Assembly (NCBI GenBank): GCA_028291985.1
Contig: JAQGNE010000080.1
Coordinates: forward strand, 1-64,000
Length of the DNA: 64,000 nucleotides
DNA from: Polaromonas sp.
Lineage (GTDB): Bacteria > Pseudomonadota > Gammaproteobacteria > Burkholderiales > Burkholderiaceae_C
Direction of reading: 5' to 3'
In this document: positions 15,215 to 16,195 of the stretch, piece by piece
How positions within the stretch are numbered: position 1 is the first letter of the stretch
How the letters are laid out: the number at the start of each line of letters is the position of its first letter
The notes under the pieces: model-generated
What the model was told of the DNA's origin: nothing
Databases searched by the model: none
The model's input: only the letters and a program-made list of their open reading frames with translations
Position numbers and translations under genes: made by a program

Positions 15215-16195
15215 ATGTCTTTCGCACTTTATCGCCGCCCTGGTGCCGTTATCTTTCTAGACGACGACCCCGAGTACCTCGAAATGCTGGCCATGGTGAT
15301 GCCGCCCGAGTGGTACGCGCGCCTGTTTCTGCGGCCGGTGGCCTGTATCGAAACCCTGTTGATGGAGCGCGACGCCTGGGAAAGCGACATCTGGAGACAC
15401 CAGGAAATGGTGAACCGGTGGCGCGAAGGGGTGGCGCTGATCCCGCAAATACTGCAGTACTGGCGGGAAGACGCCACGACCCGGTTTGCCCTGACGCAAG
15501 TCTGCGTCGTTGACTATTCCATGCCGGCCATGAGCGGCCTGCGCGTACTCAGCGAGCTCACGCAGTGGGAAGGTTCACGCATTCTGCTGACGGGCCGCGC
15601 TGACGAACAGCTTGCCGTGTCGGCTTTCAACCGCGGCCTGATCGACCAGTTCATCGCCAAGCAGCTTCCGGATATCCGGCTGCGACTGACAGAGGCCATA
15701 CGGGCAAGGCTCAGTCAGCCCAACCCGCGGCACGAGCAGACCTGGCGCGCCACCTTGTCGCGCGAACAGCACGCGCTGCTGGGCGATGCGGGAATCGAGC
15801 GGGCACTCGACCAGCTTGCCATGACGCACGGCTGGGTCGAGCACATCGTGCTGGGCGCGCCTTTCGGCGTACTGGCCCTGGACCGCACGGGCCAGGTGTC
15901 CTGGCTGCAACTGGAGCCGCAGCACCGGCTGGCAGAGCTTGCCGAAATGGCGGAATCCCAGGGATGCGAGCGGGCCATCGTCAACAACGTTGCCAGTGGC
16001 GAACTGCTGATCGACTTGGAACTCCGGCTGGCACTCGGCGGCAGTGCCAAGCCCCAGACGCGGCCAGCCACTGCCGTGGCATCGCAGGATGCGCTGGTCT
16101 ACACCGCGCTGTTTCCTGTGGATCCCTCTCTTGCGCCGGGGCCGGCATCCAGCCATGGCAGCTTTGTGGCGGCACACAGCCACAGGTCGCTGTGA
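15215..16195 (+). CDS. Atypical response regulator (LqsR-like candidate), no recognisable HTH output domain
   Basis: VIFLDDDPEYLEMLAMVMP ... VCVVDYSMPAMSGLRVLSEL ... ILLTGRAD give receiver motifs; ~60 residue insertion after beta2; starts 9 nt after the kinase stop. Confidence 0.8.
   Translation: MSFALYRRPGAVIFLDDDPEYLEMLAMVMPPEWYARLFLRPVACIETLLMERDAWESDIWRHQEMVNRWREGVALIPQILQYWREDATTRFALTQVCVVDYSMPAMSGLRVLSELTQWEGSRILLTGRADEQLAVSAFNRGLIDQFIAKQLPDIRLRLTEAIRARLSQPNPRHEQTWRATLSREQHALLGDAGIERALDQLAMTHGWVEHIVLGAPFGVLALDRTGQVSWLQLEPQHRLAELAEMAESQGCERAIVNNVASGELLIDLELRLALGGSAKPQTRPATAVASQDALVYTALFPVDPSLAPGPASSHGSFVAAHSHRSL

Follow-up and report, generated by a model that had tools for sequence, protein, structure and literature searches.

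An LqsR-family response regulator in a probable Lqs-type quorum-sensing cluster of Polaromonas sp.

The gene described here lies in a 64,000-nucleotide stretch of Polaromonas sp. DNA (GenBank assembly GCA_028291985.1, contig JAQGNE010000080.1; hereafter, the window) and encodes a response regulator that, by comparison of sequence and fold, belongs to the LqsR family, an assignment that we make with high confidence. Very probably, it is the response regulator of an Lqs-type quorum-sensing pathway, its likely function being α-hydroxyketone quorum sensing in a Comamonadaceae bacterium. An earlier interpretation made from the letters of the DNA (the sequence-only reading) had presented the protein as an oddity, with a large insertion in its receiver domain and an output domain of no evident type. 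The LqsR assignment explains this apparent oddity: insert and output domain are both traits of the LqsR family, for which a crystal structure (PDB 6sy9) is available. The features of the locus are collected in Table 1.

Table 1 Features of the regulator and of the genes around it, in window coordinates
Feature	Coordinates	Strand	Basis
Divergent LuxR-type (GerE HTH) regulator	13095..13763	-	GerE 1.7e-14; position conserved in relatives
LqsS-like membrane sensor histidine kinase, no receiver domain	13905..15206	+	HATPase_c 6e-21, weak HisKA
LqsR-family response regulator, 326 aa	15215..16195	+	Profile match to 6sy9; Foldseek best match 6sy9
Receiver insert, residues 41-92 (predicted helix 41-70 and short helices 75-85, 87-92)	15335..15490	+	AlphaFold secondary structure; spacing in 35 relatives
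Codon of phospho-acceptor D100	15512..15514	+	Invariant in 35 relatives
LqsR-type output domain, residues 172-326	15728..16192	+	Modelled alone; LqsR sole significant PDB match
LqsA/CqsA-type α-hydroxyketone autoinducer synthase	16221..17468	-	NF005526; CqsA 3hqt

Family membership and receiver domain

The open reading frame is intact, running from an ATG at 15215 to a stop codon ending at 16195, and its sole match in the genome at E ≤ 0.001 is itself. The frame is kept end to end, at 42–65% identity, in 35 loci of close relatives (which include Polaromonas, Ramlibacter, Caenimonas and Hydrogenophaga), thereby excluding a chance open reading frame. In a PDB search with the single sequence, Legionella pneumophila LqsR (6sy9) ranks first (E 2.5e-15), and with a profile of 35 sequences the match covers nearly all of 6sy9 (positions 2–331 of 335, E 7e-94). 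An AlphaFold model of the regulator (pLDDT 94.6) was compared with known structures using Foldseek; 6sy9 is by far the best match (E 4.5e-20, TM 0.73/0.77), and the matches that follow, none stronger than 1.6e-6, are mostly to receiver domains on their own. The regulator is placed in the LqsR family because of the whole-length profile match and the Foldseek match. The sequence-only reading had proposed both a structure prediction and a comparison with LqsR, and its hint at this family is borne out. The model has a lengthened receiver with extra helices and no known DNA-binding output fold.

Only 22% of residues are identical to LqsR in the fold alignment, and in our tree the Comamonadaceae clade, the window's sequence included, stands apart from the other sequences on a long branch. 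Thus, the partner and output of this clade may have diverged from those of LqsR. The tree holds neither an LqsR nor a PhcX sequence and therefore does not place the window's regulator relative to either.

The receiver motifs picked out by eye, LDDD, VVDYSMP and LLTGR, are all present as described. In full, they are FLDDD (D16–D18), VVDYSMP (D100), LLTGR (T126) and FIAKQ (K149). Together they supply, as comparison shows, a complete phosphorylation site (acidic pair D16/D17, D100, T126 and K149), of which D17, D100, T126 and K149 are invariant in the alignment of 35 relatives. Pfam detects Response_reg as the regulator's only domain, starting at residue 94, that is, in the second half of the receiver.

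D17 and D100 are separated by 82 residues in the regulator and by 81–86 residues in all 35 aligned relatives. In CheY, 43 residues lie between D13 and D57, and the surplus over that familiar spacing is about 39 residues. The long spacer seen in the sequence-only reading is real, but the insertion falls short of the roughly 60 residues given there, because part of the string quoted corresponds to ordinary strand 2 and helix 2. In the AlphaFold model, strand 2 (residues 34–38) leads into a 30-residue helix (41–70), followed by two short helices (75–85 and 87–92) and the phospho-Asp strand (94–100), each of these elements being predicted with high confidence. The insert is thus modelled as a lengthened helix 2 plus a helical extension, and the predicted receiver fold is normal apart from the added helices and is not disrupted. 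The D17–D100 stretch also aligns to 6sy9 with few gaps in the profile alignment. The insert is a trait of the LqsR family and no lesion of the copy in the window.

These results bear on whether the protein could be an orphan or decaying response regulator, its receiver disrupted and its family none of those known. Its low single-sequence similarity to LqsR and the partial detection of its receiver by Pfam could be taken that way. However, profile and fold match LqsR across the whole protein, the active-site residues are invariant, the insert is common to all relatives and the gene cluster is conserved (see below), and the orphan interpretation, refuted by these results, retains a negligible probability.

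Output domain

The C-terminal half has no detectable output domain of any family searched for. Pfam and NCBIfam returned only receiver or insignificant hits for this half; there is no Pfam hit over it to an HTH output domain (NarL, OmpR, NtrC or LytTR types), and no cyclase or EAL domain is detectable in it, in agreement with the statement, made from the sequence, that HTH, GGDEF, EAL and cyclase motifs are missing. Modelled alone (pLDDT 88.5), the output domain has one significant Foldseek match in the PDB, LqsR (E 1.4e-5), and no HTH-type fold was found for it. Protein-kinase and aminoglycoside-phosphotransferase folds also appear as weak Foldseek hits (probability ≤ 0.57, E > 0.1); they are not significant and were set aside. 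The remark that the output mechanism is not obvious was correct, but this is not peculiar to the present protein: it holds for the whole published LqsR family.

Since the output domain has no recognisable DNA-binding part, we favour an output that does not bind DNA and works by way of a partner protein or a bound nucleotide, an explanation that we consider the likeliest, if by no means assured. A narrower version of it is that the domain is degenerate GGDEF-like, binding a nucleotide without synthesizing c-di-GMP and signalling by that binding. According to PMC10653808, the LqsR output domain resembles the cyclase (GGDEF) domain of PleD; its GG[DE][DE]F motif is degenerate, and cyclase activity was not found in vitro. 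PMC11237717 terms it a putative nucleotide-binding domain, and both papers lend weight to this version. By contrast, a GGDEF profile hits none of the 35 relatives, the four GGDEF matches found in the genome do not include this locus, and GGDEF proteins are absent from the best 50 Foldseek matches of the domain alone. We regard the GGDEF-like version as possible, but less likely than not. No intact GG[DE]EF motif is seen in the regulator sequence. PleD does appear in the Foldseek list of the whole protein, with a poor overall fit (rmsd ~15) that provides no support for a GGDEF output. Profile and fold searches thus give no support for membership of the GGDEF family, which does not exclude a distant resemblance in fold.

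Gene cluster and proposed pathway

The kinase adjacent to the regulator, mentioned in the earlier reading, ends 8 bp upstream of it. We infer from its gene context that it is LqsS-like, its own matches being to general kinase families. In Pfam, HATPase_c (6e-21) is accompanied by a HisKA hit below its cut-off and by no fused receiver. The H box, AHELRTPL (His 247, numbered from GTG 13776), is preceded by several hydrophobic segments. The mechanically called frame begins at GTG 13776, but in most relatives the alignment does not begin until near residue 45, which makes ATG 13905 the more probable start codon. Convergent with the regulator, 25 bp downstream, lies the synthase, which scores 551.5 bits against NF005526 (curated cut-off 428) and is closest in the PDB to CqsA (3hqt, E 1e-94). 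On the other side of the kinase lies the divergent LuxR-type gene, across a gap of 141 bp if the kinase starts at ATG 13905. This gap is a putative divergent promoter region. The N-terminal part of the LuxR-type protein has no assigned family.

Comparison of neighbourhoods indicates that this arrangement is conserved. The order LuxR-type gene (−), kinase (+), regulator (+) and synthase (−) is kept in 29 of the 35 close relatives, as counted from the neighbourhood table, and the LuxR-type gene keeps its position beside the kinase in most of them. Among 399 Burkholderiales genomes, about 20 have an extended regulator match (E ~1e-15 or better), and at most of these loci a kinase and/or a synthase adjoins. 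At four loci (L017, L033, L034 and L035), the regulator is present and the synthase was not detected in the retrieved flank, and at the last two the kinase is also absent from that flank. The pattern points to lqsA having been lost or uncoupled repeatedly, in the way published for Ralstonia.

In the pathway that we propose, the convergent synthase would make an α-hydroxyketone signal, which the upstream membrane kinase would sense and, in response, set the phosphorylation state of receiver residue D100; signal chemistry, phosphotransfer and the dimerisation that may follow are all modelled on L. pneumophila. Phosphorylation of D100 would most likely drive dimerisation, as published for LqsR, and dimerisation would alter what the C-terminal LqsR-type domain binds, the output domain most likely acting by binding protein or nucleotide. 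The analogy of signal, kinase and regulator draws on PMC3376566 and PMC11237717, the latter describing LqsR as phosphorylated by LqsS-type kinases and as dimerising on phosphorylation.

The LuxR-type gene could belong to the quorum-sensing circuit. In particular, the regulator might act by direct protein contact with this factor, the partner supplying the HTH. The position of the gene beside the kinase in most relatives is consistent with such a contact, as is the GerE HTH of its product, a domain for which the regulator has no counterpart; however, the argument comes from gene neighbourhood, in close relatives only, and we consider the contact unlikely. Still less probable, in our estimate, is that the LqsR output domain is a signalling output of a new kind, whose binding activity has gone unrecognised, and that the Comamonadaceae clade has adapted this domain to act on the adjacent LuxR-type regulator.

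Comparison with known systems

LqsR of L. pneumophila resembles the window's regulator in fold and profile over its whole length, in the receiver insert and in the output domain, and its gene likewise lies in a cluster that encodes a sensor kinase and an α-hydroxyketone synthase; its phospho-Asp is D108, corresponding to D100 here. The two differ in sequence, being ~22% identical. Unlike the Legionella lqs locus, the window has the kinase and regulator genes side by side, with no hdeD separating them, and its cluster has a conserved LuxR-type neighbour. A further difference is that one LqsS-like kinase gene was found in the window's genome: the search for a second found none, the other hits being to the general kinase core only. 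PhcX of Ralstonia solanacearum is described as orthologous to LqsR and shares its predicted structure, but its gene is not coupled to lqsA and lqsS and sits next to phc genes (PMC10653808), whereas the Lqs cluster in the window is complete. The Vibrio CqsA/CqsS system shares the synthase family and a membrane sensor kinase; CqsS, however, is a hybrid kinase that signals to LuxU and LuxO (PMC3376566), whereas the kinase in the window is non-hybrid and adjoins an LqsR-type partner.

Lqs clusters have already been published in Polaromonas and other Betaproteobacteria (PMC3376566), and LqsR/PhcX orthologues in 310 genomes (PMC10653808); the present locus adds one member to the LqsR family. How LqsR-type domains exert their output is a family-wide question, which the locus illustrates and does not solve. 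The complete, compact clusters of environmental relatives such as Polaromonas, Caenimonas or Ramlibacter, with their conserved LuxR-type neighbour, would be convenient for studying it.

Elsewhere in the window, long open frames contain three more histidine-kinase cores (8823–9482, 32579–33247 and 35350–35577, + strand), whose similarity to the LqsS-like kinase is confined to its general kinase core. Finally, one Comamonadaceae genome (G294) encodes two LqsR-family regulators (C11:250114-251076 and C10:13650-14534), which are 50% and 30% identical to that of the window; one falls in the window's clade and the other is more distant.
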